A stretch of 64,000 bases of DNA from Streptomyces showdoensis. GTDB taxonomy: Bacteria > Actinomycetota > Actinomycetes > Streptomycetales > Streptomycetaceae. Position 1 is the first letter of the stretch; each line of letters begins with the position of its first letter. The notes under the pieces were generated by a model, which saw only the letters and a program-made list of their open reading frames with translations, was not told the DNA's origin and did no database searches. Position numbers and translations under genes: made by a program. The stretch is from NCBI RefSeq assembly GCF_039535475.1, contig NZ_BAAAXG010000010.1:48256-112255 (forward strand), in the 5' to 3' direction. This document shows positions 42,540-64,000 of the stretch, one piece after another.

Positions 42540-42546
42540 CGCCGGA

Positions 42547-43674: not shown

Positions 43675-44757
43675 TCAGCCCCGCTGGAAGAACTCCACCT
43701 CCGCCAGGGCCAGATGGCGGCCCCCGGTCAGACCCGCGGGCGCCTCCAGGACCAGCCGGATCGCGGTGACGTCGCTGATGCCGGTCGGGAACGTCTGCGG
43801 GCCCGCCTTGTCGCTCAGGCCCAGCGAGGTGCGGACCGTCCCGCCGTCCTTCGTCGTCACCTCCATCCCGATCCGCAGCGCCCGCCCCTGGAGCGCGTAC
43901 TCCTCCGGCGCCGACGAGGCCCCGTTCGTGACGATCACGTCCACCAGGCGGAAGGGCCTGGCGAACGTGTACGTCACCGAGGCGCCCGCCCCGGGCGCGC
44001 CCCAGTAGCGGTTGCTGAGCCCGTCGGTCGTGTCGTCCGCGGGGTGCCCGGGGAGTTCGGCACTCGCCCGGACCCGGGCCGGCGTCACCGCCTTCGCCTT
44101 GCCCAGCTTGTCCCGGGTGTCCTCGAAGAGGTGACGGCCGGCCGGGAGGAGCAGCAGCCCCGCCGCGCCCAGCGCCAGGACCACCACCAGGACCGTCAGG
44201 AAGCGGACCGCCCGGCCCGAGCCCGCCCGCACCCGGCGCCGGAACGGCCGGACCCGCCACCAGGGCGGCGCGGGCGGCTCGGCGGTCGGCGTCAGCGGGG
44301 CCGCGCACCGACGGCAGAAGCGCCGGTCCGCCGCGTTGGGCGTGCCGCAGGCGGGGCACGGCAGCCCGGACACCGTGTCGTCCACCGGGGCGGCCCGGAC
44401 CTGCGGGCGGGCCGTCACCGCCCTCGCGGGCTGCACGGGGAGCGGCGAGGCGTCCGGGGACGACGTGGGGGCGGGGGGAGCAGGGGGAGTGGGGGCCGCG
44501 GGAGCGGGGTGGGGAAGGGGCCGGGCTTCCGGGGGTGCCGCCGGAAGGGTGGGTGGCGCCGGCCGCTGGGGCTCGGTCCGTGCTGCCTGCGGCCGGTTCT
44601 CCGGGGGCTCCGGCTCGGCCGCGGCGGGCGGTTGCGGGCCCGTCCCCCCGGGAGCCGGGGGCCGGGCCTGGTCCGACCAGTCCAGGTAGGCGCCGCAGTT
44701 GCCGCAGAAGTCGTCCGTCGCACCGTTGGGCGCCCCGCACGCCGGGCATTCACGCAA
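43675..44757 (-). CDS. Zinc-ribbon protein with membrane helix and galactose-binding-like C-terminal domain (eCIS-linked)
   Basis: The 360-residue product starts with a zinc ribbon (CPACGAPNGATDDFCGNCGA), then a proline-rich linker, a second ribbon (CPACGTPNAADRRFCRRC), one membrane helix (FLTVLVVVLALGAAGLLLLP) and a C-terminal beta-rich domain (GLSNRYWGAPGAGASVTYTF, ending HLALAEVEFFQRG) that resembles discoidin-type ligand-binding folds. The best start is TTG at 44757, overlapping the stop of the tail protein gene by eight bases, with GAAAGGGG upstream. It is the last gene of the injection-system operon. It could tether or sense the particle at the membrane, but this is inference. Confidence 0.75.
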   Translation of the reverse strand: MRECPACGAPNGATDDFCGNCGAYLDWSDQARPPAPGGTGPQPPAAAEPEPPENRPQAARTEPQRPAPPTLPAAPPEARPLPHPAPAAPTPPAPPAPTSSPDASPLPVQPARAVTARPQVRAAPVDDTVSGLPCPACGTPNAADRRFCRRCAAPLTPTAEPPAPPWWRVRPFRRRVRAGSGRAVRFLTVLVVVLALGAAGLLLLPAGRHLFEDTRDKLGKAKAVTPARVRASAELPGHPADDTTDGLSNRYWGAPGAGASVTYTFARPFRLVDVIVTNGASSAPEEYALQGRALRIGMEVTTKDGGTVRTSLGLSDKAGPQTFPTGISDVTAIRLVLEAPAGLTGGRHLALAEVEFFQRG

Positions 44758-45331
44758 GGCCGTCGCCCCTTTCGCCGCCGCCGGAAGGCGGGCCGGGCAG
44801 GACCTCCACCCGGCAGACCGTGTGGACCGGGCACAGCGCGCGGACGAGCGCGCGGACCCGGTCGGCGTCGACCGTAGGCTCGCGGTGCGGCCACACCCGG
44901 ACGAGGACCTCGTCGGCCGGGGCGGGCGGCAGCGCGGCCCCGGGAGTCCCGGACCAGATGGCCGCACCGTCCCCCTCGACCTCGGCGGACACGCCCAGGA
45001 CCAGCCGCAGGGCGTCGACCAGGCCGCGCCGGGTGCCGCGCCGGCGGTGCAGTTCGACCGCGCGGGCCACCGCCTCGCGCCGCTGGTCCGGCGGCCACCG
45101 CGGGTCGTCCACGCCCCCCACCCAGGTGGCCAGCCAGGACAGGAAGTCGGCCGGGGTCACCCGCGGGTCGAAGTAGGCGGGCAGGTTGTCCAGGGTCGCG
45201 AACACCGGGGCCAGGACCGTGTCGAGCCCGGCCGTGAACCGCTGGGCGAAGTCGTCCTCGGCGTACAGCGCGGGCAGCTGCCCGCCGATCGGGTGCCGGC
45301 TGGGCAGCCCCGGGACCGCGGCCCGGCTCAT
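44750..45331 (-). CDS. eCIS baseplate protein, phage tail protein I family
   Basis: The 193-residue protein matches the phage tail protein I/Pvc12-related baseplate family: HPIGGQLPALYAEDDFAQRF, then LDNLPAYFDPRVTPADFLSW and VGGVDDPRWPPDQRREAVA. It would be part of the baseplate next to the J-like protein. Its ATG overlaps the preceding stop (ATGA), so the products are made together. Confidence 0.88.
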   Translation of the reverse strand: MSRAAVPGLPSRHPIGGQLPALYAEDDFAQRFTAGLDTVLAPVFATLDNLPAYFDPRVTPADFLSWLATWVGGVDDPRWPPDQRREAVARAVELHRRRGTRRGLVDALRLVLGVSAEVEGDGAAIWSGTPGAALPPAPADEVLVRVWPHREPTVDADRVRALVRALCPVHTVCRVEVLPGPPSGGGERGDGLA

Positions 45332-47298
45332 CCGCGCTCCTCCTCGGCCCGGGCCGCCACGACGACCTGGTGCTGGTACGAGAAGACCAGCGCGCCCGCG
45401 GCGACCTCGATCCGGTCGACCGGGGCGCCGCGCCGGCCGGTGACCGGGTCGGCCGCGAACATCCGGATCTCCTCCACCAGGACGTCCCCGACGGCGCGTT
45501 GCAGGACGCCGAACACCTCCCCGTACTGCACCGGCCGGCCGAACGGCCACCCCGTGCCGTCGGGCCCGCCGCGCAGCGGGTCGAGGTGCCGGAACAGCGC
45601 GGCGAGCGCCGCCTCCCGCACCCGGTCCGCCTCCGCGGCCGGCGCCGACAGCCGGGCCACCACCGTCACGCCCTGGTAGAACGGCGGCTCCACGACCAGA
45701 CGGGTGCCGATCAGGCGCCGTTCGTCGAGCGCGCCGGTGATCGCCCCGAGCACCTGCTCCGAGGGGATCAGCTGCTCGAAGCGGAGCCGGTCGCCCTCGT
45801 CCGCCACGGCGTCCGGGACCACCAGGACCCGTACGGCTCCCGCGCCGCCCCCGGCGTCCGGAAGGCAGCGGACCCTGAGCACCGAAGGCGCCGCCTGCCG
45901 GGCGATGATCTCGTAGTCCTCGGCCGTCACCGCGCGCTCCTGCATGCGCAGCGCTTCGGGGGCCCGCAGCCTGGCGTTGTCGAGGGTCTCCCCGGCGACC
46001 CCGCCCCGCGCGGCCTCCCGGTTGGCGACCCGGGTGACGTACGGGACGGAACTGCGCAGCACCGAGACGGCGCCCCGGGCGACGTTGCCCGCCGGGCCGC
46101 CGCCGGTCCGGTAGCGGGCCACCCGGATGTGCGCCCCCTTGGGCGGCACGGCCCCGCGCGAGCCCAGGGTGCCGTCGGGCTCGCGCAGCACCGGCGGGAA
46201 CGTGAACTCGCCGAGGGTGGCGTCGACCCGCACGTGCCGGTCCTCCGGGCCCGAACGGCCGAAGTGCTCCACCAGCTCCCAGCGCTGCCACCCCTCCGGG
46301 GAGGACACCTCCACCACCGGCGGCTCCCCGTCCAGCAGCACCGGCGGGCGGCCGAGCCGGAAACTCTGTCCCGCCACCCCCTCCGAGACGCCCAGCGGCA
46401 CGTCGGTCACCGTCTCGGCGTGCTCCACGGTCATCGTGCCCCCGACGGTGAAGACGGCCGCCTCCCGCACGGTCGGGGACTCCGAGTAGAACGGCTGGCC
46501 GGGCTCCGCCTCCGTCACCCGGCACCGCAGCCAGCCCGCGCGCGTCCCCGCGACCACCGAAGCGGTGTGCCCGGCCGGGACGTACACGATGACCTCGCCC
46601 GGCCGGTTCAGGCCGCCCGTGCTGTCGGAGCCCGTCTCGCAGCGCCGCCAGCGCCCGCCGTCCCAGGCCTCCCACACCAGCGGGGGCTGGCGCGGGTCCA
46701 CGCCGACGCCCTGCACCCGGCTGTCCAGGCGCACGGCGACCACGCAGCGCGGCACCGCCGTGGGCAGCCCGAACAGCAGCGCGTCGCCGGGCTCCGGGGC
46801 CGCCTGGAAGCACGGGACGTCCCGCCCCTCCGCGAGCGCGCCGGTCACGTCGGTCTGTCCGCCGGACCTGGGCGCCGTCACCAGCCGCGTCAACTCGCTC
46901 GGCACGATCCGGAGTCGGTCCACGGTCGCGAAGACCACGCCCTCGTCCGGCTCGTCGGGCCCGCCCGCCGCCGTCGTCACCTCGGTCCCCGCGGGCAGCG
47001 TCACCGTGTCCGGCTGCGGGGCCGACAGCCAGAAGTCGACCTCGGCGACGGCCGCCGAGGGCGGGAACAGCCGGATGCCCAACAGGTCGAGGAACGCCAG
47101 GTAGTTCTTGTCCGGCACCCGGTTCAGCCGGTAGAGCAGCTGGTCCACGAGGTAGGCGAAGGTCTCGATCAGGGTGACGCCCGGATCGGACACGTTGTGG
47201 TCGGTCCACTCCGGCGCGCGCTGCTGCACGTACCGCTTCGCCTCGTCGACGAGCTGCTGGAACCGTCGGTCGTCCAGGTTCGGGGAGGGGAGGGCCAT
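45328..47298 (-). CDS. eCIS putative baseplate assembly protein (gpJ/Pvc11-like)
   Basis: The 656-residue protein begins MALPSPNLDDRRFQQLVDEA followed by HNVSDPGVTLIETFAYLVDQ, the signature of the large baseplate wedge proteins related to phage P2 gpJ and T4 gp6. The C-terminal half has ALRMQERAVTAEDYEIIARQ and PFYQGVTVVARLSAPA, also typical. It forms the wedges that link sheath and spike. The start overlaps the gp25 stop by one base (TGATG). Confidence 0.92.
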   Translation of the reverse strand: MALPSPNLDDRRFQQLVDEAKRYVQQRAPEWTDHNVSDPGVTLIETFAYLVDQLLYRLNRVPDKNYLAFLDLLGIRLFPPSAAVAEVDFWLSAPQPDTVTLPAGTEVTTAAGGPDEPDEGVVFATVDRLRIVPSELTRLVTAPRSGGQTDVTGALAEGRDVPCFQAAPEPGDALLFGLPTAVPRCVVAVRLDSRVQGVGVDPRQPPLVWEAWDGGRWRRCETGSDSTGGLNRPGEVIVYVPAGHTASVVAGTRAGWLRCRVTEAEPGQPFYSESPTVREAAVFTVGGTMTVEHAETVTDVPLGVSEGVAGQSFRLGRPPVLLDGEPPVVEVSSPEGWQRWELVEHFGRSGPEDRHVRVDATLGEFTFPPVLREPDGTLGSRGAVPPKGAHIRVARYRTGGGPAGNVARGAVSVLRSSVPYVTRVANREAARGGVAGETLDNARLRAPEALRMQERAVTAEDYEIIARQAAPSVLRVRCLPDAGGGAGAVRVLVVPDAVADEGDRLRFEQLIPSEQVLGAITGALDERRLIGTRLVVEPPFYQGVTVVARLSAPAAEADRVREAALAALFRHLDPLRGGPDGTGWPFGRPVQYGEVFGVLQRAVGDVLVEEIRMFAADPVTGRRGAPVDRIEVAAGALVFSYQHQVVVAARAEEERG

Positions 47299-47720
47299 CA
47301 GTCGTCGACCGCTTTCCCGAGCCCCTCCTCGGAGGGGATCGTGTAGAAGGGGAAGACCAGGTTGCGCCGGTCGTTGGTGGTCCGCACGGTGTAGTGCACG
47401 TCGATGTAGAGGGTCCCCGCGTCCACGGAGTCGAAGGCCACGACGACCTCGTCCACCACGATCCGCGGCTCCCACCGCTCCAGCGCCTCGCGCACCCGCT
47501 GCGCGACCCGCCCGGCGGTGTCGCCGTCGCCGGGCGCGAAGACGTACTCGTGGATCCCGCAGCCGAACTCGGGCCGCATCGGACGCTCGCCGGGGGCGGT
47601 CCCCAGGACCAGCCGGATCGCCTCCTCCAGCTCCCGCTCCCGTTCGACCATCACGATCCCGCCGGTGGGCCCGACCCGCAGCGGGAACGCCCAGCCGCGG
47701 CCGATGAACCGCTCGCTCAT
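47298..47720 (-). CDS. eCIS baseplate protein, GPW/gp25 family
   Basis: The 140-residue protein has the gp25 core EEAIRLVLGTAPGERPMRPE followed by FGCGIHEYVF. In tailed phages and injection systems gp25 starts sheath assembly at the baseplate. The reading frame begins MSERFIGRGWAFPLRVGPTG. Its ATG overlaps the PAAR stop (TGATG). Confidence 0.95.
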   Translation of the reverse strand: MSERFIGRGWAFPLRVGPTGGIVMVERERELEEAIRLVLGTAPGERPMRPEFGCGIHEYVFAPGDGDTAGRVAQRVREALERWEPRIVVDEVVVAFDSVDAGTLYIDVHYTVRTTNDRRNLVFPFYTIPSEEGLGKAVDD

Positions 47721-48037
47721 CACACGCCCCCGATCAGGACGTCCGGCGCGCCGGTCAGGATCGTCGCGCCGCACGCCGTCCGGTCGCGGGCCCGCGCCGC
47801 CGGCAGTCCGCCGATCAGCACCGCGCCCGCGGCGAGCCCGGCCGGGTCGGGCAGCACCACGTTGGCCGGTCCGAGGGCGACGTGCGGCGGGACCACGCAG
47901 ACGTGCAGGCTGCCCACCACGGCGGCCGGCAGCCCGCCGATCAGCACCGTCGCCACGGTCGCGGCGGCGCCGGGCGGCGGAGTGGCGATCCGGCCGCCGT
48001 GGTCGGTCGGATCGCCGGTACGGGCGGCGGACGGCAT
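47720..48037 (-). CDS. eCIS PAAR-type spike tip protein
   Basis: The 105-residue protein is built of short repeats with PPGAAATVATVLIGGLPAAV, PANVVLPDPAGLAAG and ATILTGAPDVLIGG, the PAAR-like pattern that folds into the sharp tip on a VgrG spike. Cysteine and histidine residues that could bind metal are present (HGGRIATP, HVCVVPPHVAL, TACG). It follows the VgrG-like gene after 94 bases. Confidence 0.88.
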   Translation of the reverse strand: MPSAARTGDPTDHGGRIATPPPGAAATVATVLIGGLPAAVVGSLHVCVVPPHVALGPANVVLPDPAGLAAGAVLIGGLPAARARDRTACGATILTGAPDVLIGGV

Positions 48038-48131
48038 CAGGGGCTCCTCGGGAGGAAGGGGGCTGCGGCGGGAAGACCGGAAAGTGGGACACAGGAGGGA
48101 CGGGGGGTGGGGAACGGAGGGACAGGAGAGG

Positions 48132-49949
48132 TCAGTTGATGCGGACGAGGCGGGCCTTGAGGACCGCCAGGAGGCCGCCGTCGACGGTGACCTCGGCCGT
48201 TCCGGCCACCCGGACCGTCCGCCCGCCGACGCGCACCGCGGCCGTGGCGTCGATGTCCACCTCGCGGCCGGTCACCTTCACCGTGCCCTGCCGGGCGTCC
48301 AGCGTGATGCCGTCCCGGTCCAGCAGCACGGAGCTCACCGGCCGGTTCCGCCCGGCGTACACGGTGAGCTCGATCCGGTCCCGGCGGTCGTCGAGGCGGA
48401 CCTCGAGGCGTTCGTCACCGGTCACCAGACGCAGCCCCGACGGGCCCGGCGCCGGCGCGTCCAGCAGCTCCACCCGATGGCCCGAACGCGACACCACCGA
48501 CCGCCGGTTGACCTTGCCGCTGGTCCGGTCGACCAGGGGCACGTCGTGCGGCGAGGGCTCGTCCACCCCGTTGTAGAGGCCGCCGATGACGTACGGACTG
48601 TCCAACAGCCCCTGCTCGAAGCCGACGAGCACCTCGTCGTTCACCTCGGGGCTCACGACGCCACCGCCGCCCTTGCCGCCCCACTGGACCGTCCGCACCC
48701 AGTCCGTGACGTACGTGTCGTCCAGCCACGGGAACCGCAGCCGCACCGCCCCGCGCTCCGAGCCGTTCGGCTCCCGCACGTCCGTCACCACGCCGATCGC
48801 GAGGCCCGGGACGCGCGGGCCGCGCCCCGGGGCGTTGGCGCCCGTCACCAGACCCGTCAGCGAGCGGTCGGGGCTCGCGCTGACCCACACCGTGGTGCGG
48901 TAGCCGCCGTGCGGCTCCAGGACGTGCTGCACGGCGGTCGCCGTGTACCGGCCGGAGAACGCGGGACCCACGTTGCCCAGGGCCACCGCCCGGCCCGCCC
49001 GCAGCAGCGGATTGCCCTCGGCCACCGCCTCCAGCTCGCCGAAACCGGCGCTGATCTGCGCCGCCGTCGCCCCCGCGACCGCCGTCGTCTCGGCCTGCGT
49101 GCGGTACGGCGTGTCCGTCACCGTCACGGTCGACGACCCGAACCGCGCGGCGGCCTGCGGACCGAGCCCCGGGACCACCGTGTCGCTGACCACGGCCGGC
49201 CGCTCGGCGACCAGGGGCCGCTTGGTGGTCACGTCCCAGCCGCGCACCGCCACCTTCGCCGCGCCGTCGGCCGCCGACAGCGCCGCCCGCAGGGCCAACA
49301 GGTTGCGCCCGTACTCCAGCACCATCGGATGCCGCGTGGCCGACGTCGACGGGGCGGGCGCCCCGGACGCCTTGGCCGGCCGGGTGAACTGGAGCAGCCC
49401 CTTGTCGTCCACCCGCACCTGCGCGCCGCTCTCCCCGGCGAGGAACTGCAGGAAGTCCCAGTCGGAGACGTTCGCCTGGGACAGCTGCCGGTACGTCACC
49501 GGCGCGGCCTCCACCGCCCCGACCGCGAGCCCCGCCCCGGCGGCCACCTTGCGCACGATGGCCGCGGCCGTCATGTTCCGGTACGCCACGACCTTGCGGC
49601 CCCGCTGGAGCCGGTGGGCCTTGGAGTAGGCGCGGACGACGGTGAACGAACCGGTGCGGTCCCGGTCGATCTCCAGGGCCGTCACCTCGCCGTTGAACAG
49701 CCGCTCCCGCGCCTGCCCCTTCACCGTCACCACCGACACCCGCAGCGGGGTGCCGATGGTGATGCCGGTCGCGCGCAGGAACTCGTGGTCGGGGTCCCGG
49801 TAGGTGAGCACCGCCGTGTCGGGCAGCGCCACGTTCTCGTCGACCACGCAGCTCACCAGCTGCGCGGCCCAGACGGGCGGCAGCTCACCCGGGGCCTCCA
49901 CGATCGGATCGGCCGCGAACGACCGGCCTCCGGCGTCGGACGTGCTCAT
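48132..49949 (-). CDS. eCIS spike protein, VgrG/phage late control D family
   Basis: The 605-residue protein has an N-terminal gpD-like domain (LSQANVSDWDFLQFLAGESG with DDKGLLQF) and a gp5/VgrG beta-domain (GVVTDVREPNGSERGAVRLR, FPWLDDTYVTDWVRTVQWGG, VNDEVLVGFEQGLLDSPYVI). The C-terminal repeats rich in glycine, valine and arginine fit a spike beta-helix. It would trimerise into the central spike and carry the PAAR tip. GGAGGGG stands near the ATG, which overlaps the LysM stop (ATGA). Confidence 0.93.
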   Translation of the reverse strand: MSTSDAGGRSFAADPIVEAPGELPPVWAAQLVSCVVDENVALPDTAVLTYRDPDHEFLRATGITIGTPLRVSVVTVKGQARERLFNGEVTALEIDRDRTGSFTVVRAYSKAHRLQRGRKVVAYRNMTAAAIVRKVAAGAGLAVGAVEAAPVTYRQLSQANVSDWDFLQFLAGESGAQVRVDDKGLLQFTRPAKASGAPAPSTSATRHPMVLEYGRNLLALRAALSAADGAAKVAVRGWDVTTKRPLVAERPAVVSDTVVPGLGPQAAARFGSSTVTVTDTPYRTQAETTAVAGATAAQISAGFGELEAVAEGNPLLRAGRAVALGNVGPAFSGRYTATAVQHVLEPHGGYRTTVWVSASPDRSLTGLVTGANAPGRGPRVPGLAIGVVTDVREPNGSERGAVRLRFPWLDDTYVTDWVRTVQWGGKGGGGVVSPEVNDEVLVGFEQGLLDSPYVIGGLYNGVDEPSPHDVPLVDRTSGKVNRRSVVSRSGHRVELLDAPAPGPSGLRLVTGDERLEVRLDDRRDRIELTVYAGRNRPVSSVLLDRDGITLDARQGTVKVTGREVDIDATAAVRVGGRTVRVAGTAEVTVDGGLLAVLKARLVRIN

Positions 49950-50683
49950 CGCCCCTCCTCGTCCTCGTCGCCCGCGTCCCGCATCCCCGGCACCACGAGC
50001 TCCGTCCCGGGGACCAGCGCCATCGGATCGTCGATCCCGTTCGCCTCCGCGATGGCCCGCCAGGCCGTCGCGTCGCCGTACTCGTGCCACGCCAGCATCG
50101 CCAGGCTGTCGCCCGCCACCACGGTGTGCGTGCTGCGCGCGGTGCGCCCGCCGGACGTCGGGTTCTGTCCGGGCGGGTCGACGCTCGCCTCCTCGATGGA
50201 CAGCGCGCAGGTGGCCCGCAACGGCTTCCCGTCCACGTCGAACAGCGTGTAGGTCACCGACAGGCTGGACAGCACCCCGTCGAACGACGTCGTCCGCGCG
50301 TTGCCCCACTCGAAGCGCACCCACGGGCTCGCCGGCTTCTTCCGCCCCAGGCTCGCCGGGGTCGGCACGCACGCCTTCATCAGCTTCTCCACCGCCTGCT
50401 CCACGGAGTTGTCGTGCGTGGCCGTGGCGTCCAGGAAGACCTCCAGGCTGAGCGCGCGCGGGCCGCTGCCCACGAACTCGGGCAGCGCCGACTGCCCGGC
50501 CATCCGGGACGGCGAGCGCCGCCACTCGGTGGTCTTGCGCAGCTCCAGCGACGAGGGGTTGAACTGGAGGTCGAGCCGGGCGATCGTCCCGCCGGGCTTG
50601 GCCCCGACCGAGGCGGGGGGCTCCTTCAGGGTGAGCTGGGCCCTGGCGCGGCTGGCGCGAGCCGATGCGGGCATGGCGTGCAC
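49946..50683 (-). CDS. eCIS LysM-domain tube/baseplate connector (Pvc7-like)
   Basis: The 245-residue protein has an N-terminal part typical of the gp53-like connector (ARLDLQFNPSSLELRKTTEW, ALSLEVFLDATATHDNSVEQ) and a C-terminal LysM domain (HTVVAGDSLAMLAWHEYGDA). In injection systems this protein sits between tube and spike. GTG at 50683 and ATG at 50674 are both possible starts. GGAAGGGAG precedes both. Confidence 0.9.
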   Translation of the reverse strand: MHAMPASARASRARAQLTLKEPPASVGAKPGGTIARLDLQFNPSSLELRKTTEWRRSPSRMAGQSALPEFVGSGPRALSLEVFLDATATHDNSVEQAVEKLMKACVPTPASLGRKKPASPWVRFEWGNARTTSFDGVLSSLSVTYTLFDVDGKPLRATCALSIEEASVDPPGQNPTSGGRTARSTHTVVAGDSLAMLAWHEYGDATAWRAIAEANGIDDPMALVPGTELVVPGMRDAGDEDEEGR

Positions 50684-50822: not shown

Positions 50823-51248
50823 TCAGCTGGGCAGAAGGCCCGCGTGGGCGATCTCCAGGGTCTCCACCGCCGCTTCCGAGTGGGCCGGGTCGAAGGAGGG
50901 CCCCTGCCAGCGCACCGGCACGATCCCGAAGACCTGCCAGCTGATGATCCGGCTCAGGTCGGGCCGCAGGGCGACGATCTCGCCGTCCTTCGGCTCGACC
51001 CTGCGCAGCGTCTCGTCCAGCCAGCGGCCGATCTTCGCCGTGTCCGCCGTGACCGGCCGGGTGAGCGTGATGTTCGACCAGGTGACCCGGCCCGGCAGCT
51101 GCCAGGTGAAGCCGTTGTTGCCGCCCTCGGCATAGCTCTCCATCTCGACCTCGGCCCCCATGCCCGAGCACGTGTGGAACGCGCCCAGGTCGTTGCCGCC
51201 GATCGCCAGCCGGAAGAACACGCTGGTCGCGAAGATGCTGTCGGTCAT
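50823..51248 (-). CDS. eCIS tube-like tail protein (second copy, Pvc5-like)
   Basis: The 141-residue protein belongs to the T4 gp19-like tube family: FFRLAIGGNDLGAFHTCSGM, EMESYAEGGNNGFTWQLPGR and NITLTRPVTADTAKIGRWLD. It probably forms the first ring of the tube next to the spike, distinct from the main tube protein encoded upstream. The ATG at 51248 follows GGCGGA. It is intact, unlike the genes upstream. Confidence 0.9.
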   Translation of the reverse strand: MTDSIFATSVFFRLAIGGNDLGAFHTCSGMGAEVEMESYAEGGNNGFTWQLPGRVTWSNITLTRPVTADTAKIGRWLDETLRRVEPKDGEIVALRPDLSRIISWQVFGIVPVRWQGPSFDPAHSEAAVETLEIAHAGLLPS

Positions 51249-51282: not shown

Positions 51283-54257
51283 TCAGCGACGCCCGTCGAA
51301 GGGCCTGCCCGCGCGCTCGCGCCCGCGCCGCAACTCGGTGCGCAGCAGCCGCGCGACCGGATCCAGCAGCCGCCGGGCCAGGTCGTCCAACTCGGTGTCC
51401 GAGCCCTGCGGCCCCGTCTCCCGCACCCGCTCCGCCCGGCCCGGCACCGCGGCCGCCTGCACCGGGCGCGCGGCACCGGGTGCGGGGGGCGGTCCGCCGT
51501 CGGGACGCGGGGTGCCGGTGGCGCGTTGCAGCGGCGGCGGGTTCGCCCCACCGGCACCGCGCGCCACCGCGGGCCGCGCCACCGGGATCGGACGGCCCGG
51601 TGGCAGCCCGCCCGGGGCCGTGGGGGCCGGGGCCGGCCGGACCACGAGCGGCGGCGTCGGAGCGCCGGCCACGGGCAGCGGCGCCGGACCCGACGCGGGT
51701 ACGGGGCGTGCGGCGCGGCCGACGGAGACCGTGGGCGCCTGCGCGGTGCCGGTACGGGGGGAGGCCGCCCCCGTCGTCACCCGCGGCCCGTCCGCCGCGC
51801 GCCGGCCCGGGGGCGCGGCCGAGGGTGCGTCCGGCCACCGGGCGGGCACCACGGGCCTGGACGCCGGGCCCGTACGGGGCGGGTCCGGACTCCCCGTGTC
51901 GACGGCGTCCAGGCCCAGGGCAGAGGACGGGCCGCCAGAAGCCGGAGGACCGGCACAGGGGAGTCCGCGGGGCCGCCGCTGCCGCCGTCGGCGACGGGGT
52001 CCGGCTCGACGAGCGGGACCGGGACGGGCCGTCGGTCGCCGTGGTCCCCCGAAGGCCCGGTGAGGGCGGTGCGCTGGAGCGGGGTCGCCTGCGGTGTGCG
52101 GGTCCGGGCCGCAGGGGCGGTGCCCGGGAGCGCCGCGCTCGCCGGCAAGGCGTGCAGGGGTGCCCCGAGCCCGCTCCGCGCCCGGGGCCCGGGCCCGGCG
52201 GGCGGCTCGGCCGGACGTCGGACGGCGGGCATCGACGGCCCGGTGACCGTCACCTCCGACGACTGCGCCGTGTCGCGCGCCCAACGGCGCCGCGGTGGAA
52301 GGCAGTTGGGCGAGGGGCGCGCCGAGCGGTGGCCTGGTGACCGGTGGTGTCGCCGGGGTGGCGGGTGTCTCGGCTCGACGCTGGACCGTGGGCAGGGGCG
52401 GCGAAGGGTCGGAGGGGTCGCCTCCGACGGCTGCGCGGTGGGCGGCAGTTCGGTGAGGGGCGCGCCGAGCGGTGGCCTGGTGACCGGTGGTGTCGCTGGA
52501 GTGGCGGGTGTCTCGGCTTGGCGCTGGACCGTGGGCAAGGCGGCGACGGGTCCGGAGGGGTCGTCCTCGGCGGCCGCGGGATGGGCGGTGGTGAGGTGAG
52601 GGGTGTGTCGGGCGACGGCCTGCCGGTCCGAGGCGATTCCGGGGCGGTCGGCGTCTCGGCTCGACGCTGGACCGTGGGCAGGGACGGCGATGGCTCGGGA
52701 GTAGTCGCCTCCGGCGGCTTCGTGGCGGCCGTCGGTCCGGTGGGCGGGGCTCCGAGCGGTGGCCTGGTGGCCGACGGTGTCGCCGGGGCGGTGGCCGTCT
52801 CGGCCTGCTGCCGGACCAGGGGCATCGGCGAGCCGGGGACCGTCACGTCCGACGGCTCGCCGCCACGGGCGGTTCGGCGACCGGAGCCCCGAGCGGGGCC
52901 CTGCTCGCCCGCTGCACCGGGGGCGTGGCCGGAGGGGTGGTCCCGGAAGCGGGGCGGCACGACCGCCACGCGGCGCCTGGGCATCGCGGGAGTGCGGGCG
53001 ACGGTCGACGGCCGCCCGATGGTGCGCGGGCGCACCACGGCGCGGGGCGCCGGTGGCCGCGGACCGGCGCCGGACCGGGCGCGGGAGCCGAGGAGGCGGC
53101 GCGTTCCCCGTGCGATGCCGGGGCGCCGGCCGCCCCCTCCCGGAGGGGACGCCTCGCGGGCGCGGGACGCCGGGGCACCGGACGGCGCCGGTCGGCCGCG
53201 GCTGCCGCCCCCGCCGTGGGCGGCACCGGAGCGCCGGCCACGGCCCGTCGGGTGGGGAGTGCGGCGGTGCCGGAGGCGCGTGAGGGCGTCGTTCCCCGTG
53301 GCGGGGCGCCGTCCACCGGCGCCTGGGGAACCACGGCGATCCGCCGTATCAGAGGGAAATCCGTAGCCGCGGGCGCTCCGGACGCTCGGGGCGTGCCGGC
53401 CCGGTGGGCCCTGCCGGAACGCGCCGGGGCGCGGGTCCGACCGGGACCGGCCGCCCCTGCCGCACCGGAGGGTTCGGCGCGCTGTACTGCCGTACCGAGG
53501 CCGGGGGGTGACAGGAGCCGCCGGTTCCCGGTCCGTTGCCGCGCGCGTCCGTGACCGGCGCAGCAGGGGCGGGGTCCCGCCGCGCCAGGAGGCTCCTCCC
53601 CGCGGGGTCCCGGCCGCGTTCCCGGCCGGGGCCGGCGTTCCGGAGCCCCCGGTCGGCTCCCGCCCCGACCACGGTCCGCGCCACGACCGGTCCCGGCGTG
53701 ACGTCGGAGGGCGGAGCCGTCGTCGGGGCCCCGGCCTCGGGCGCGGGTGTGCCGAGCGTCTGCGCCTCGGCCCCGGGCCCGTCGTACGGGGCCGGGCTTC
53801 GACGGGCGCGCGGTGCGGGGCGCGGAGGGCTCCGGCGTCGGGTCCTGCTCGGGCTCCGCCCCGTACGGGCCGAGGGCGCGGATGCAGCAGCGGGGCCCCC
53901 GCCGCTGTGGGTGGGCGGGTCGGCGGCGGGGCGGGCCACCCCGCGGACGAGGCCGGGCGGGGCGGAGGGGGCCAGGCCGTGGGCGAGTCCGGTGTCGAAC
54001 GACGGGTCCTGCCAGGCGGCCAGGCCGGCGCGGAAGACGAGGCCGTCGCTGACGGCCAGCGGGGCGCGGGAGACGGTCAGCCGGGGGCTCGTCGTCATGC
54101 GCCAGCCGCCGTCCCAGTTCCCGGGCACGCCGGACCCGGGTGGGGCGGCGGCGTCCCGCGGCGCCGCCGGGCCCGGTGCCGCGGCGTCCGTGGGAGCCGG
54201 CCCCGGGAGGGCCCGGCGCCGCGCCGCCGCAGCCTGTCCGCCATGCCATGATGTCAA
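51283..54257 (-). pseudogene. Long proline-rich repeat protein of the eCIS locus, frame-disrupted
   Basis: This stretch reads as one long protein broken by several frameshifts. The N-terminal part (SPRLTVSRAPLAVSDGLVF, then AAWQDPSFDTGLAHGLAP) is in one frame. Proline/alanine/arginine-rich blocks follow in three frames, and the C-terminus LDDLARRLLDPVARLLRTEL lies in another. Between about 52.3 and 52.8 kb a unit of about 144 bases (48 residues, with VQR.AETP and TRPPLGAP) recurs. Copies spaced 143 bases apart reveal single-base losses. The function is unknown. It lies where a tape-measure or extended linker protein could be expected. The disruptions are probably sequence errors, so the gene may be intact in the organism. 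Confidence 0.6.
52328..52800. repeat. About 144-bp tandem repeats in the proline-rich gene
   Basis: The marker ggtggcctggtg recurs at 52328, 52471 and 52758, with a diverged copy between. Copies encode about 48 residues each. The 143-base interval between the first two shifts the frame and points to a base miscall or true loss. Confidence 0.65.
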
Positions 54258-54267
54258 CCGCCTTCGT

Positions 54268-55431: not shown

Positions 55432-57150
55432 TCACTCGTCGACGAGGCTGGTTGCTGTCCGAGAACTGGGCCATCCGCAGCGGAACACCACGAACTCGGC
55501 CGGCTTGACGGGCGCCACGCCGATCTCGCAGACCACCCGCCCTGGTCGATCGACTCCTGCGCGGTTGTTGTCCCGTCGCACATTCACGTGAGAACGCCTC
55601 CGCCGCGCCGTCCGGCCGAACAGGCGCCTCACGGCGCCACTCTCTCGGTGAGGAAGGCCGTGACGTGCGCCACGGATGCTGGACCACAGGCCGGTCGTCG
55701 TTCGGCTCGAAGACCACCGCACTGGGGTGCCAGCAGGATCGACTCCTCCAGGTGAGTTGAAACGAGGCGGCGCGCACGTTCAGATAGCGCCCAGGCCGGG
55801 TCGGTAGGATAGTAGGGTGTCTTTGTGTCTTGGTCAGGGGTACCCAGCACGCGGATGCCACGCGGCCGGTGTCAGCGCCCCAGCAACGCAGGTCCACCCG
55901 ATCAGGGCTTTACACTCAGGTCCTGCTACTGCCCTTGCTGAGCATTCAGCTCAGTCCACGACGCACTCTATCTGATCACCTCGTATTGGCGGGCCCTTGT
56001 GGACGGGCGCAGCTCGGCGTCGCTGCGCGCCACACACGCCCGCGAGTGTGCACACGCTCGGCGGGCACGGTCGTGTTGCGCCCGGCCGCCGCGGGCGCAA
56101 GACACCGCACCAGGCCGGTAGTATACATGAGCGTCGCAAACCGGGCAGTCGTGCAGCCCGCCTCACGTCGTGCTGAGTGCACCGCCTAGTGCGCCGCACC
56201 TGCTGCCGGAGAGCCCGGGCCTTCTGGAGGGGCGTCCCATGGACGGCACACGTGACTCGCCACATCTGCTACGCAGTGCGAGGATCACCGTCGAGTCAGC
56301 TGCACACGGTGGCGCACGCCCCTCGGCGATCAGATGTCGCCGCGCTGGTAGGCGCTCATCAGGTACGGCACCCGACCATGTTGTGATCTCCTGTACGATC
56401 CGTCTTCCAGGGCCGGCGAAAAAAGCCGTGTATCGGGCATAATCTAAGGGCATGTTCTGTTCGTCGACTGGCATACGTGTTAACGTAATCGGCCTGGGTC
56501 GAGCCGGGTTACCTGCCCGACGGCCGCCACCGCTTTCAGAGGGCGCCGGGGCGCCGGCCCGTCGGTGAGGGGTCGACCGTGCTGGGGGCTGTGCGGGCCG
56601 CGTCTGGGCGGGCCGTCGCGCTTCTCGGAGACCCGATGATGGCGCGAGGCCCGCGTCTGTTGTGACGACGTAGCCTCTTGACGCTCTTGCGGGTTGTTTG
56701 TTTTGTGGACAACTCGTACGTCTCGGCCACCTGGTCGCCCTGGCGGCAGGATCCGTGAATCGGTCCTCGGCGGGTTGTTCTCGACCTGGGTCCGTGCTGA
56801 TGCTCGACGGACACGCGGTGAACGCCGGGCCGGGCCGCGGACGTGGGGAAGCCGCCGAGTTCTCACGAACGGCACGATGGCCAGCCGCCCCCGCCACACC
56901 TGAGCTCAGCTCCCTGGGCCCCGCCGGAACCGCGAAGCGTCCCTGCACCCGCGCGGGTTACGGCTAATGCGTCACCCCGTACGCTCCCAAGTCCACAAGT
57001 CACGGACGAAGGGGCGGCCGACCCGGACGACGTACGCGGCGCCGCCGCCGTGGCGAGTTAGCCGTGCACGCGAGGGGCATGTAGGCGCCGCCGGAGAGCG
57101 TCTAGTGACACAACCTGACGACCGGGACACTAGACGCCCGCTGAACTCGC
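55432..57150 (-). pseudogene. eCIS contractile sheath protein, badly disrupted
   Basis: The C-terminus is readable as VCEIGVAPVKPAEFVVFR (55480-55535) with the end LVDE and stop at 55432, preceded by AVVFEPND and FGRTAA. Farther in, the run LMSAYQRGDI is exact at 56333-56362, and GVYAR-SDAE-GVHKAPANEVIRGVVD can be traced at about 55954-56043. VAETYEL lies near 56.7 kb. All are typical of the sheath that contracts to drive the tube. Between these islands bases are inserted or changed so often that no frame survives. The upstream limit is estimated from the usual length of about 520 residues. Confidence 0.7.
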
Positions 57151-59830
57151 ACCTGGACCTCAGAATAAGTGGATGACTGGAGCACGAGGTAGAACACACA
57201 CAAAGAAATGAAAGGGTACCGGACTCACCTATGGCACATAGTCGACGGTAGATATGGGCCCGGACAACCGCATAGTGTATTCCTTTATGGTTTGCTGGCA
57301 GCAAACACTGCATCCGTAATTGCTTACGATGCAGGAACTCACTGCGACGGCTCCCATATATTAACCAACCGAGAACACTGGCCATTAATCGCCACCCCGC
57401 ACCCCTCTCTCGCAGCGTCCCGAATGGTAGCACGAGTCAACCAAACGAGTCATACATGACGCGGCGGTACCCAGAATACTGTAGAGACACTCACCACGTT
57501 CCCTATCCACGTTTACACGACGACTCCGTAGCCCAGTGATGAGCTCCCCATGGTGGACTTCGTATTCGCGGCATGCACACGCTCCAGTTGTTACGTGCGC
57601 TAGCAGTGTACACACACGTCTGAGAGCAGGCGCGGGCAGGGCGCGATGAAGTGCGCAACGAAATCAGCGCGTAGGGCTGCAAAACACCTGTCCGACGGAA
57701 CGTCGGCCCGAGGGGCTAGGCGGGCAGTTTGCCATCTAGTACGCCAGAGGAAAGTACAGTGGCTACAGACGCGCGAGGGCACGCTCCGTCAGCACAGGCG
57801 CGTACTGCCCCGCCGTCCGGGCACGCACGCCATAGAAATTGATGCGACACGCAGAAGGCACCGCGGGTAGTCACCAATCAGCACGGGTGACTCGACTGCT
57901 AAAAACACTGGGTCACAGGTACGGGGCCGATCACTACGCTCCACTATCCAGCGTGGAGGGAAGACACGGCAGAATCCAGGGCACACTCAGATTGGTCCAC
58001 GGTGTGTGTGTACTTACCTCGGTGGCGCCACCCCGACCAACACCAGCTGAGCACCATGTGTGTCATAGCGGCCCAGCCACAGGCACACTCACGGGGCCGG
58101 TTACGGGCAGGGACAAGGCGAGCTTGAGACGAGACAAGTCCCGCCAGGCACAAAGTGAAAGTACGACTTGCGGCTTGAACAAGACAACAGGCACCAGGCG
58201 ATCGACCCCCCGGCACAGCTACAAGAAAACCACGATAGGGATTATCCGCGGCAGACAAGCAGAGGTAGCGCAGAGAGTACCGTCACAGCATGGGAGGCAG
58301 GCCCGCATCGTGGGCATCTGCAGGCACCGCTCCCACAGGCCAGCCGGTCTGGGGCCGCGTCCACTCCGGCGAGAAAAACCCGAGCGCGGCACAGTCCAGA
58401 AGACTACAGCGCGACACGTCGAGGCGCGCGTTGCACCCATTACGAACCGGGAATCAGATGAAGAGAACGCCTCGTCAGAGTGTTCGGCGGAGAGGAAGGG
58501 TCTATGGCATGGTATACAAAGGATCGGCCAGGCTCGGGGATTTCCGATATGGGACTCAACGCCGCTGGAGAAAGTACAGCGACTCGATGCTATGGCCGGT
58601 CGCCGGTCGTGCGCGGCCTTACACCACTCCGCGCGCTGACTTGTGACCCGATAGAGCGCGTCGCTCGTCATGTACCGAACAGCAACCGCGTGACGGCACC
58701 GCGCCGCCTCCGTGAAGATCCGAAACTTCCAGTTCTATCTCGCGTATCGGCGCGACGTACTTGTTCGACGACCGCTCAGTCGACAGGTCACCACGTACAG
58801 GCCTCCATGCACGAGGTCGAGCAAACCACGGACCACGACCCCCTCGGCGACAGGTACCAACTGGTATTTCTTCCACGTGCCGGAACGGGCACAACGCGGA
58901 AGAGCGCGATCACCCCCAACGCGGCCCACGCGCGCCAGCCGCCATTGGGGCCGCATCCCCCACAGCGACTCTGAGAGCACAATCTAGCGAGCTCGCAGAG
59001 TGGCGGCCCGCACGCAGAGCTCACTTCCAGCCGCCGGGTGCGTGGCGGGCAGCACCAGGTGACCTCCCAGACCCCACCGCGCGGGACTCCAACCGGCGGG
59101 CCAAACCGGGCGAGCCCCGCTACGGTGTGCTGGGCCGCGCACGGCGGCGACAGTTCCCCTCCGGGCGTTACACGGCCCGACGCCGTGTCGGCGTGCCGTT
59201 GCGCCACACGTGACAGAGTGCAAACCGGCGGCCCGGTGCAGCTGCCCAGGCGTTCCGAGCCTAGTCCGCCTTCGTCACGCACACGGGGGGTCCTTTCAGA
59301 CACGAAAACTTAGCACACACGACAGGCAGGACTGACCACGCAGGCAATAGACGACAGCGCACGCGCCCTGCACGGGACTGTTCCGCCACCACACCCAGTA
59401 CCGATCCCTCGGTCCGGTCCCGCGCCACAAGGGCACTGCTGTGCACCGCACGCAGCGGCCGCCCTGCCGTAGACGAGGGGAGGGGACGGCCGACCGCTCG
59501 AGGGTTACGAACGGACGAGAGGTGGTGTGTCTCAAAGAGGGCCCAGGCCGGGCTCCACCCACAAGCCCGCTCGATCGCCGTAGTCGTGCACAGCTGTGAT
59601 CAGATGGAGAAAGGACAGTCGGGACCCCGGTGCTAATCCAGAATGTATCGCGCAGAGAGCGATTCGTAGGCCCAGTGACACAGACTATTCTCCTGCTGGA
59701 CTAACGGCCGGCCAGGTCCTGTCAGACCGCAGTCGCACCCGCGGTCGTTGTATCGGCAAGCTAGATGTATCAACGGCGGGCCCAGGACAACTAGCCCAGC
59801 TGACGACAAGTCAGACCGCGAAGCGGATCC
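57150..59830. other. Sequence without coding signal inside the eCIS locus
   Basis: About 2.7 kb with visibly lower GC than the flanks, frequent stops in all frames, and no long open frame or recognisable domain. By position it should hold the C-terminal part of the AAA ATPase (with its Walker motifs) and possibly another gene. I find no RNA gene, insertion sequence or repeat that would make it a real insertion. It is best read as an error-rich stretch. Confidence 0.55.
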
Positions 59831-60930
59831 CACGCGGGAGCGACCCGGGCGAGTCCCGGTCCGCCACCGTGCCGCCGTGGCCGCCCAGGGCCGCCGCGTC
59901 CAGCGGCAGGGACGCCAGCCCGCGGGCGCGCAGCGCGGCGGCGGCGAGGCCCGCGGGTCCCCCGCCGGTGGGAGCGCAGGTGGACTGTGGCCGTGACCGG
60001 ACGCGGCGGCGGCCCGGTCCCGTTCGGCCGGGGTCGGCGGCCGGAGTCCTCGGCGCGCCGCCCGAGGACCCCGGCGAGCAGCGGGTCGGGCGAGGAGCTC
60101 GCCCAGCAGGTGCGCGGTGACCCGGTCGGGCACGGCCAGACGCGGACAGCGGCGGGGCGCTGTTCGGGCTCGGTTGACCTCGACGAGGCCCCCGGAGGAC
60201 GAGCGGGGCGGTGGGGGCGAGCCGGAACCGGGCGGCCGGGACCCCGGCGAGCCGCAGAGTTCGAGGGCCGAGCCCGACGTGGGCCGACCGGGCGCGTCAG
60301 GTCGTCGTTGAGGTAGCCGTAGAGCCGCTCCGAAGCGCGCGTCCAGGTCCGGGGCCCAGCGCGATCAGGAGCAGGTCCACGTCCGGCGGGGCGAGGGAGA
60401 AGCGGGCGGCCAGCACGTCGAGCGGCGAACGGCCGGCGGAGCGGCCGGCGCGAGCGGCGGGGGAGGACGGGTCGTACGGCGGATTCCAGGACCCGGCGAC
60501 GCATCGGGCGTCAGGAACTGCCCCCGGTACGGGTCGTCCGGGTCGGGATCGACGCGAGCCGCACCGCACACCGCCCGCCGCACCCGCCTCCTCGGACGAG
60601 CACCAGCCGGCTCCACAGGTACGGGGGAGGGGGAGTCCGGGGGCGGGACCCGTTCGGCCGGTCGCCTCCGGGACCCGTTCGGCCGTCGCCTCCCGGACGC
60701 GTTCGGCCGTCGCGCCGGGCCCGGGCCGGGTTGTCGGCTCCCCCGTCGGCGGGGCAGGCGTCGGCCTCCCGGGCCGGGTGGGCGGCGCCTCCGGGGCCGG
60801 GTCGGGAGGCGTCGCCCGGGTCTGGCGGGGGCCGTGCCGCCCGGGCCTGGTCAGTGCTCGGCTCCCCGTCGGTGGCGGTGTCGGCACGGTGCCGGTCACG
60901 GTCTGCTGCGCTCTCCTCGTCGGCGGCGGG
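59830..60930 (-). pseudogene. eCIS AAA ATPase (Pvc15-like), N-terminal half, frameshifted
   Basis: Fragments in several frames give RVDPDPDDPYRGQFLTPD, SPLDVLAARFSLAPPDVDLL, LLIALGPDLDARFERLYGY and LNDDLTRP, then PDRVTAHLLGELL and LAAAALRARGLASLPLDAAA. This is the winged-helix N-terminal half of the ATPase found in these loci, which may help remodel or assemble the particle. The Walker A and B motifs are expected beyond 59.83 kb and are not readable. A proline-rich leader precedes it. The exact start is uncertain. Confidence 0.6.
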
Positions 60931-61147
60931 CGGGGGCGGGCGGGCTCCCGGGTGGCGCGCCGAAAGCCCTCGTCGGGGGGGGGCGCGTCCACCTCGGTGT
61001 AGCGCAGGCGGCGCGCCTCGTCCGCGCGCGTCCGGGCCGGAGGCGGGTGCCGAAGACGCACCAACCGAGCCCCTCGCGGTGACCGGCGGGGCGGCGACCC
61101 CGGCCGTGCCCGCGAGCGGGCCCGGACCCCGACCCCGATCGACTCTG

Positions 61148-61640
61148 CGTTCAGCTCACCGCCGAGCGCCGACGCACACGTCGGCGGGCGAGGGGGCGTC
61201 GGGGTCGCTGGTGGGCGCCACGCGTCGAAGCGGGGGACAGGAGCAGGTTCCGAGTTCGGCGAGCGTCCCGCCGAGCAGGTGTTGCGCGGGAGGGTCGTTC
61301 GCGGGCCCGTGAGCGCAGACGAGCACCTGGGACAGCAAGAGCCGGGGTGCTCGTCCTCGGGGCGGCCCGCCCACGCGGAGACCAGGTACGCAGCTCGAAC
61401 CCAGCGGGGGGGGTGCGGCGCGCGACGACGAAGCCCCCTCGTCGTACACCCTCTCCCCGCCGCGCCGCGGGGGCGTGGTCCTCGCGATGTCGAACAGGAA
61501 GACGCACACGGGGGCGGTGTCGTCGCCGCGCCGCCCAGTCAGGTCTCATGGCGCGTCGAACACCAACCTCGACGCCCGCCGGCCTCCAGCCGGGACTCCA
61601 CGAGCAGGCGGCGCAGCGCTCGTCGACCTCGTTGGATCAC
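61148..61640 (-). pseudogene. eCIS cap protein, Pvc16/DUF4255 family, frameshifted
   Basis: The start GTG at 61640 gives VIQ, then EVDERLRRLLVES after one base shift, followed by LEAGGVEVVFDAP, DWAARR and VCVFLFDI, PEDEHRLLSQVL and LLGGTLAELGT. These match DUF4255 (Pvc16_N), the protein that terminates the tail at the far end. The C-terminal ALGGELNAE block near 61.15 kb is the usual end. At least four frame changes are needed. Confidence 0.68.
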
Positions 61641-61644
61641 GGCG

Positions 61645-63900
61645 GCCACACGTCGGGCGGCTGCCCGTGCCGTGAACACGAGGAAGTCCGTCCGCACCGG
61701 CCGAAGCCCGGCCCGCTCGCGGTGATCTCCCGCGGGCCGGTCTGATCCTTGGCGAGGATCAGCAGCGGCCGACGAACGAGCCGTCCGGGCCGGGCACGGT
61801 CGCCGCCGCGGCGGCCGTGATGCCGGGCCGCAGGTGAACCCGTTACGGGCACCCGGGCGGGAAGTCCCGGCCGCGCACCGAGGTGACCGAAAGCCGGCTT
61901 GCCGATCCGGGGGACCCGCGACGATCCGCGGTTGGAGGACCGGATGCGCTGCCGGGCGGTGTTGCGCGGGGGTTCCGGCGTCCGTGCCGGTGGTGGTGAG
62001 GACCCCGCGTGACCCGGCCGGTGTGAACGCCCGGTCGCGGGGGCGAGGACGACTGGAGGACGGCGCGGGCGCCGGCGCCAGGTCCGGAAGCGCGCGCGGT
62101 CCAGCCGCTGTCGCAGCTCCGGCGGCGGCCCGTTGGAGGGCACGCCCGGGGGCAGCCGATGCGCAGCCTGAGGCCGGTCGCGAGCGCGTTGCGCCCGTTG
62201 CGGAACCGTGTACGTTGACGACGACGCGCCCGCCCACGTACCCCGGTCGGGGCGCGCGGTGATCCGCACGCCGGTCCGGCCGGGCACGGGCGGCTCGGAG
62301 GCGGCGGGGGAGTGGTCGTCGGCGGGGGGCGCGGTGGTCGGGGGAGGCGGAGTCGTCGGGGGGGGCGGTTGTGGTCGGCGCAGGGGTCGACGGCCGAAGG
62401 CGTCGGGGTCGGGGGATCCAACCACCTCGCGCACGGCACGAGCGTGCGGCCCGCGTTGTCGCTCGGGCGGGGCGAGGACGGCGCCGGTCACCCGACCAGT
62501 CACCGGAGGTCGCCGGGAGCGAGTGTGCCGGTGAAGGTGACGCCACCGGAACGGTGCCGCCCGGCGGACGAGCGCCCAGGGAACAGGTCAGGGCCGCCCG
62601 CGTCGCAGGAGGCGCCGGCGCGGTGACGCGGTGACGGTCAGCCAAGCGGGGGCGCCAGGGTCAGCCGGGGTGCCGGGCGAGGCGGCCGGGGGCCGCCGTT
62701 GACGACCTCGACCCGGACGATCCCGGGCACGCCGACGGTCAGCGGCGGGACGCCGGCGTGGGGCCCGTACGGCAGGGTCGACGGACTGCTGACGGCGGGC
62801 TCCTTTGACGGCCCGCAGGCCGGCGGTCAGCGGGGTGGGGCACCGGTTCGCGAAGTCCACCAGGTGCAGCTTCTGGGCTGTTCGGGCCGAGCGCGGCCGG
62901 GAGCTGAACACCAGGTCCCCTGCCGTCGGCCGTCCAGGCGGCGTCGGCGGGGCTGGAAGGGCCCGGTCGCCGAGGTGTCGGGGAGCTTCCTGGTGGCAGG
63001 CCTCCGGGCACGTCGCGGGCGGCGTCCGGGCAGCAGGACCCGGCAGCCGGCGTCGAACCCGCCGCCGGCCAGGGGCGCGAGCAGGAAGGCCGTTGCGCTC
63101 GTCGACGCGGCCGCCGCCGTTCTTCGGTTGAGAGGCGATGACGGTGCCGTCCGGCGAGAACGCCGGGTGTCGTCGATGACCTCGCAGCCGGCGGGCACAT
63201 CGCCCGGCGCTCAGGTCCCGCTGCCGGTCGAGCCGGTCCACGGGCACGGTCCAGATTGCTTGTTCCCCCGTTGCCGCCGATGACTGGTGCGGGTGAACGC
63301 CAGCGTCGTGCCGCGGACGACCAGGTCGGCTGGGCGTCACGCCCTCGCACCTGCCGTCCGCGGGACGACTCGCCGCGCAGCGCCCCGGTGCGGCCGTCGG
63401 CGATCAGGATGCGCCCGGGGCCCGAGGCTGGCGTCCGCCCACCCCTCCGGGCGAGGTGCGCGTGAAGGCGAGGAGGGCGCCCGTCGGGGGAGAAGTTCGG
63501 GATCGGTGTCCAGTCCCGGGGCCCCCGCCCGGCCAGCGGCAGCGCCGCCTCGTTCGTGCCGTCTCGGCGTCCGCGATCAGATCGTTCGATCCGCACGACA
63601 CACCGGTCGCCGTCTGATGCCGTCCTACGAAGCGGCTGTGAACTACGATCCTCGCGCCCGTCGTGGGGTGTAGTTCTGCCGCTCGGCTCCACGGATCGAA
63701 CCACGAGCGGGCAACGGAAACAGCGGATCCCGCGTCGTGCGGTCGCGGTACGTCGCGGCGCGGCCGGATCCTACGGTCGGGAGAGGCCCGTCGAGGTCGC
63801 GCGGAGTCGGCTCCAGTCCGACATGGACGTCTGGAGCGAGTCACACTGGTGCGGACACGGCCGCCTGTGACCCGACTGCGATACGAGCGCGCCGCGCCGT
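61645..63900 (-). pseudogene. Beta-propeller (TolB/PD40) plus CARDB-like protein at the head of the eCIS locus, frameshifted
   Basis: In minus frames the upstream part shows propeller-type repeats: PNFSPDG, ALLAFTRTSPGG, LIADGRTGALRGESSRG and AFSPDGTVIASQPKNGGG. Farther on come VRITARPDRG, VVVNV, NALATGLRLRIGCP and ASGPGFGPVRTDFLVF, which look like CARDB or DUF11 adhesion-type domains after a proline/threonine-rich linker. One long protein with a propeller and several beta-sandwich domains is likely. Its role is unknown. It could bind a surface or a cargo. The upstream end may lie beyond the window. Confidence 0.5.
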
Positions 63901-64000
63901 CGGACGGGGCGAGCAGGGGGGCGAGCCGACCTCGCGGTAATCCTCCACTGAGGGACGCACTCGTACGGCGTGTCCAGCCGTGCGGGCGGGCGCCGGAAGA
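63900..64000. other. Window edge, no gene assigned
   Basis: The last 100 bases are GC-rich but carry no recognisable domain. They may hold the start of the propeller protein. Confidence 0.3.

Follow-up and report, generated by a model that had tools for sequence, protein, structure and literature searches.

A Streptomyces showdoensis contractile injection system with a CisA homologue after tail protein I and a candidate length ruler

The stretch of Streptomyces showdoensis DNA considered here, a window of 64,000 nucleotides (G000:C10:48256-112255, from a genome of 8.5 Mb in 29 contigs), carries on its minus strand an operon for a contractile injection system (CIS), in which the gene for tail protein I (Tail_P2_I) is followed directly by one for a homologue of CisA. 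The locus is very probably of the CIS-Sc/SLP type (dbeCIS subtype IId): a cytoplasmic, fibre-less CIS, recruited by CisA to the producer's own membrane, that fires to harm or remodel the producer.

Going by published work on S. coelicolor and S. lividans, the particle would be assembled in the cytoplasm of the producing cell. From the usual position of a fibre, the bitopic CisA would recruit it to that cell's own membrane, and contraction there would deliver effectors that damage or reshape the cell when it is stressed or developing. CisA-dependent firing and cell death are likewise carried over from those papers. The case made here draws on gene content, the lack of a recognised fibre, the identity and domain plan of CisA, and its co-occurrence with one type of sheath. 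Both CisA and the lack of a fibre in such a system are already published. What the locus mostly adds is a clean example, two such systems in one genome with a CisA gene in each, and its candidate for a length ruler matters more than the fibre-less design.

Position 64000 is the end of a contig, because contig C10 stops at base 112255. The window from 51 to 64 kb is the error-riddled end of a locus that reads cleanly on another contig, C15, and it is on C15 that sheath, ATPase, cap and tube 1 could be read without damage.

The gene after tail protein I and the search for a fibre

The type of the system is given by its components. Compared with solved structures, the sheath matches 8bky/9gtp (745.9 bits), the baseplate protein Cis11 matches 9gtp (862.5 bits), Tail_P2_I matches chain E of 9gtp (138.4 bits) and VgrG matches 9gtr (397.1 bits), entries presumed to be the S. 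coelicolor particle. The locus has marks of type IId: its sheath (read on C15) and its baseplate belong to the CIS-Sc lineage, and an AAA+ ATPase and a Pvc16_N cap are encoded in the cluster. All the parts that a first-pass annotation of this DNA had named are indeed there and face the same way: sheath, two gp19-type tubes, ATPase, cap, LysM protein, VgrG, PAAR, gp25, J-like protein and Tail_P2_I. The short overlaps it described are real as well, 1 base between gp25 and Cis11, 4 between Cis11 and Tail_P2_I, and 8 between Tail_P2_I and CisA. Its remark that Streptomyces systems of this type are reported to be intracellular agrees with PMC10066040 and PMC12237407.

The same annotation saw no fibre after tail protein I. 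No recognised fibre lies there, but the slot is not empty, since CisA directly follows. The coordinate at which the locus was first drawn to begin, 43675, is the end of the CisA open reading frame (ORF). Read from a TTG that overlaps the stop of Tail_P2_I, the protein has 360 residues; in a database record it is given a later start and 253 residues. It contains two zinc ribbons that score above the Pfam cut-off, and it has a weak match to NADase_transloc (20.8 against a cut-off of 27). Among 52 aligned homologues, C134, C137 and C151 of the second ribbon are invariant, and C18, C21 and C148 are conserved in at least 90%. An AlphaFold2 model (mean predicted local distance difference test score 73.3, predicted template-modelling score 0.47) has a disordered proline-rich linker, a helix at 180-203 that is the predicted transmembrane (TM) segment, and a beta-rich C-terminal domain. 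Foldseek, with matches counted at E up to 0.001, likens that domain to CBM32, F5/8 type C, lectinolysin and NAD-glycohydrolase translocation domains (50 of 167 matches listed), the best among the matches listed being an APC10-type domain (E 3.1e-06). The same plan is reported for CisA/SCO4242 in parts of PMC12237407 and PMC10066040. The gene is a CisA homologue, likened to SCO4242 by reported plan and position rather than by direct alignment, and by analogy its product is the published membrane adaptor, occupying the usual fibre slot.

The arrangement is general among relatives. Relatives of VgrG among the genome contigs searched are mostly from Streptomyces, the nearest at 86% identity. They returned 73 loci, 69 of which were used (L008-L076), four distant ones (L077-L080) being dropped. 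A CisA profile built from the window's protein and 119 homologues matches directly after Tail_P2_I in 67 of the 69. The match is full-length with a strong hydrophobic segment in 54 of these 67; the other 13 are short and lie at contig ends (L043 is doubtful). The two exceptions are L031, which ends at Tail_P2_I, and L038, without Tail_P2_I. CisA also goes with the sheath. In a hand-counted set of 41 genomes, this one included, 20 have a sheath scoring at least 600 bits against that of C15, a threshold picked after a gap between 615 and 421 was seen. CisA matches occur in 19 of those 20 genomes and in 1 of the 21 others. Relatives of a one-TM COG1470 protein (query P0158) are present in all 20 and in 1 of the 21 (G010). 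Neither protein occurs in any of the 7 genomes that have only lower-scoring sheaths.

Could a fibre lie elsewhere? Two places had been named where a fibre gene would overturn the reading, a stretch at 57-60 kb called unreadable and the DNA upstream of 64 kb. A fibre within 57-60 kb is ruled out: the clean copy is filled there by the ATPase and sheath genes, 100 bases apart. Upstream, none of the 13 ORFs scanned in C15:1-21284 is a known fibre (C15 2.3-5.0 kb lay outside the scan). The fibre-less reading holds on these two grounds. Downstream, where the scan reached down to 37 kb, the five ORFs at 37.1-43.5 kb include no fibre; they encode FAD- and FMN-dependent oxidoreductases, DhaK, DhaL and a PTS IIA-type protein. 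A Collar domain was found nowhere in the genome (the control was positive in 4 of 14 genomes), and a PHROGs scan of 8 proteins matched no fibre family. Six ORFs scanned in G007, another CIS lineage taken as a possible positive control for fibre finding, had no fibre match and so did not provide that control. In sum, the ORFs, proteins and genome searched hold no recognised Afp13/Pvc13 fibre of the kind that marks Afp/PVC-type extracellular CIS.

Alternatively, this could be an extracellular CIS of the ordinary kind, with a fibre gene at another place in the genome or one that has diverged too far to be recognised. Fibres evolve fast, and according to parts of PMC12923769 many Actinobacteriota CIS have fibre genes, so fibres are possible in the phylum. 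Three of the scanned upstream ORFs (C15:97-1119, C15:1306-2337 and C15:12823-13335) lack any Pfam family. These points weigh against the reading preferred here, and others may be added to them. A search for Adeno_shaft was silent in this genome and in all controls, hence uninformative on fibres; G028 has the high-scoring sheath without a CisA match, and G022 a short CisA match (48.4 bits) without the sheath; and the localisation, firing and target proposed for the locus come from genes and papers. An extracellular CIS is still very unlikely, as the slot is taken by CisA in nearly all related loci and both the Collar search and the PHROGs scan came back empty. A different objection is that CisA is an effector or sensor that merely sits in the fibre slot and anchors no particle. 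The fold of its outside domain is of a kind that binds sugars, and parts of PMC12237407 report that CisA is absent from the particle seen by cryo-electron microscopy and that direct contact with Cis11 is unconfirmed. The same source reports that CisA is needed for firing in S. coelicolor, where deletion of cisA abolishes both contraction in cells and stress death, and this makes a mere effector or sensor unlikely.

Overlapping contig ends and a second locus

Read on its minus strand, the window aligns colinearly from position 64000 down to about 44550 with C15:18958-37644 (L081, L082), and this segment too lies at the end of its contig. The two contig ends overlap by about 19 kb, yet they stand unmerged in the assembly. 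The longest stretch without any difference measures 2057 bases, and window 51387-48390 has 2997 matches and 0 mismatches, with 5 gap positions. Toward the end of C10, window 59832-55368 gives 2377 matches, 702 mismatches and 1386 extra bases on the window side, and toward the end of C15, window 46899-44550 has 493 mismatches and lacks 601 bases, it being C15 that worsens there. The error rate rises toward the end of each contig, and the last 4 kb of C15 are corrupt where the window is clean. From about 51.4 to 64 kb the window is frame-broken: of 20 minus-strand ORFs at 50.8-64 kb, 19 have no Pfam match, the sole match being tube 2 at 50.8 kb. Searches of the whole genome found sheaths on contigs C7 and C15 and none on C10, and two Tail_P2_I genes, on C7 and C10. 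Two of each fits two loci, one of them split over two contigs. The dovetail with its growing errors, taken with these family searches, indicates two overlapping contigs with poor ends, and the "unreadable" stretch is assembly error, not biology. The near-complete locus first claimed for the window stands as a list of genes; the copy at 51.4-64 kb is damaged, and its clean reading is on C15.

The damaged stretch could alternatively be a second copy of the operon, decaying as a pseudogene. It is frame-broken, its GC content is low (0.64-0.66 at 56-60 kb), and the 1386 extra bases are its own. A decaying copy would, however, have to lie exactly at a contig end, opposite a copy at another, in dovetail orientation and with 2057 bases identical. 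It would have to gather changes in step with the distance to that end, as C15 does in its last 4 kb, and the C10/C15 pair would still have but one recognisable sheath and one Tail_P2_I. I regard it as extremely unlikely.

A second CIS locus, S. coelicolor-like and with its own LuxR-type regulator, lies at C7:17429-36179 (L083, L084). Its sheath and Cis11 are closer to the solved entries (915.2 bits against 745.9, and 986.5 against 862.5), and it has its own Tail_P2_I and a CisA-like protein of 453 residues. Its VgrG and gp25 ORFs are only 46 bases apart, so that no PAAR gene lies in between. Beside each CIS operon is a divergent gene for a protein with one TM segment, at C15:15466-17070 and C7:20801-22405, minus strand. 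Their Ig-like N-terminal parts are related and their C-terminal parts differ, that on C7 ending in a peptidoglycan-binding domain (PF01471). Relatives of the C15 protein are named hydrolytic protein/COG1470, a name that SCO4257 carries in part of PMC9282665; the likeness to SCO4257 is by name only. The two proteins may be effectors like SCO4256-4258.

A proline-rich protein as candidate length ruler

S. coelicolor particles are uniform, at 268 nm and 61 sheath layers, and parts of PMC12237407 call a tape measure gene absent. I tentatively propose, as a possibility that is more doubtful than not, that the tape measure of this class of CIS is a protein of roughly 1000 residues, rich in proline and alanine and carrying repeated QR motifs, whose gene lies between tube 1 and the tube initiator. 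Such a protein would set a uniform particle length by its own length, leaving its middle free to change.

The lengths were taken from 71 sources (the 69 loci, C15 and C7), of which 55 yielded the N-terminal marker as well as tube 2. All of these but L024 and L028 have the stop at most 300 bases from tube 2, and the 53 were used. Counted from the marker to the stop, the protein measures 899-1113 residues (mean 990, standard deviation 53, coefficient of variation 5.4%). Its N-terminal block and its helix-like C-terminal block are conserved, with majority-residue frequencies of 0.79 and 0.75 at the two ends and 0.08-0.17 in some middle blocks; the median identity of the middle, gaps counted, is 0.22. 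A protein has on average 10.5 [VLIPM]QR motifs, compared with 0.66 when each is shuffled once, though C15 has only 5. The median length difference is 52-58 residues in every identity band below 0.6, and 30 in the 7 closest pairs. By comparison, the CisA linker has a coefficient of variation of 36% (46 loci with both proteins, the linker approximated as length minus 230). Per residue, length changes about 6 times more slowly in the proline-rich protein than in the CisA linker on the Cis11 tree. Contrasts on that tree (n=45), a moderate control, are larger for CisA in 30 (binomial p 0.036, Wilcoxon p 0.0005). In absolute residues the contrast is modest, with medians over distance classes of 32-63 for the proline-rich protein and 41-108 for the linker.

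Length is thus kept and sequence left free, as in a tape measure, within the 53 near loci. Between lineages there are steps: of 17 other stretches, taken from 13 genomes, 14 have a slot of 618-1301 codons, two (G037b and G016b) have none, and one (G014) is unmeasurable. A ruler would predict particle lengths to match. If the proposal is true, particles should be shorter in lineages with about 620-820 codons in the slot and longer where it has about 1200-1300. A length-conserved protein within the cluster makes the puzzle of a uniform length with no known tape measure directly testable.

Several observations count against a ruler. The protein matches nothing in Pfam or PHROGs and no known tape measure, so that it is not one by sequence. 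A protein search with residues 800-988 returned nothing at E 0.001, probably because C15 too is imperfect: its frame of 988 codons is misread at about 29.3-29.9 kb, where relatives match another frame. Proline makes up 11-21% of the proteins printed, unlike helical tape measures. Phage tape measures run at 1.5 Angstrom per residue, and about 988 residues at 268 nm gives another ratio. Gene order suggests that SCO4249 is the S. coelicolor counterpart, and part of PMC10020575 lists SCO4242, SCO4256 and SCO4251, not SCO4249, as particle proteins of unknown function. In the part of the matches covered by literature text searches, no such proline-rich protein is named as a ruler.

Gene order and known systems

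On C15 the order is eCIS_core protein, Ig-like/TM protein, LuxR-type regulator, PD40/DUF11 protein, cap, ATPase, sheath, tube 1, zinc-ribbon protein, small protein, proline-rich protein, tube 2 and LysM protein (Table 1). The window is clean for VgrG, PAAR, gp25, Cis11, Tail_P2_I and CisA. There follow, in the same orientation, DhaK, DhaL and PTS IIA-type genes (41530-43539, minus strand). The PD40 beta-propeller/DUF11 protein, which is hydrophobic near its N-terminus, is encoded directly upstream of the cap gene. The genome has two eCIS_core (DUF4157) frames as candidate cargo, one upstream of the CIS operon (C15:13357-15210) and one at C28:112902-113117.

Table 1. Genes of the CIS locus, in window positions unless marked C15
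Feature	Position	Strand	Remarks
CisA homologue	43675..44757	-	360 aa from TTG; discoidin/CBM32-like C-terminal domain; Pfam, model, homologues
Tail_P2_I (Cis12-like baseplate wedge)	44750..45331	-	
J-like Cis11 baseplate wedge	45328..47298	-	656 aa
gp25-like (Cis9)	47298..47714	-	domain position within longer ORF; start approximate
PAAR tip (Cis10-like)	47720..48037	-	
VgrG-like spike (Cis8)	48132..49950	-	start approximate, ORF open to 50525
LysM/CIS_tube connector (Cis7)	49946..50683	-	read as L082:12824-13561 (identical stretch); C15:30824-31561
Tube 2 / tube initiator (Cis1b), gp19 domain	50823..51248	-	on C15 ends 30684
Pro/Ala-rich repeat protein (candidate length ruler)	51283..54249	-	~990 aa; frame-broken in window; C15:27258-30224
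Small conserved protein	54254..54411	-	~52 aa
Zinc-ribbon protein after tube 1	54408..54902	-	weak match, below cut-off
Tube 1 (Cis1a), gp19 domain	54902..55343	-	C15:26173-26613
Sheath (Cis2)	55432..57609	-	corrupted in window; intact C15:24404-26083
AAA+ ATPase (Cis15)	57794..60899	-	corrupted in window; intact C15:21985-24303
Pvc16_N/DUF4255 cap (Cis16)	60896..61639	-	corrupted in window; intact C15:21281-21988
PD40/DUF11 protein, 3' part	61636..64000	-	corrupted in window; 1075 aa at C15:18057-21284
eCIS_core (DUF4157) protein	C15:13357-15210	operon's strand	617 aa
Divergent Ig-like + one-TM protein	C15:15466-17070		
LuxR-type regulator	C15:17094-17891		

Among known systems, the extracellular CIS Afp and PVC have the tail architecture in common with this locus; the Afp13/Pvc13 fibres and the Afp14 tape measure are theirs, and neither is recognised here. 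The S. davawensis CIS is known with Tme, of 2247 residues by the residue numbers in part of PMC11126660. In another CIS lineage, G007 has a Tme-like locus (L090:2304-9047) in which an eCIS_core protein of just that length precedes a CIS_tube gene, whereas here the region before tube 2 encodes the proline-rich protein without a Pfam match. SLP of S. lividans, described in parts of PMC13277306 and PMC10286715, is by the former report intracellular and fibre-less, with a LuxR-type regulator beside the cluster, as here. It differs in that no tape measure or PAAR is reported for it in part of PMC10286715, and its DUF4157 protein is smaller than the one here, which is encoded on the same strand as the operon.

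Another close system is CIS-Sc of S. coelicolor (SCO4242-SCO4260), whose presumed solved entries are those matched by sheath, Cis11, Tail_P2_I and VgrG. There too a fibre is lacking and CisA comes after the baseplate (parts of PMC12237407 and PMC10066040): the former reports no fibre density on the particles, and the latter reports neither a fibre gene nor a typical tape measure gene, and mentions Sco4242 and Sco4256-4258 by name. The locus described here differs in having no effector genes between ATPase and sheath on C15, and in having a PAAR gene, absent in S. coelicolor. Of the two species compared in PMC10066040, only S. venezuelae is reported to have PAAR, and in this respect the present locus resembles CIS-Sv, by description the PAAR-bearing variant of the type.

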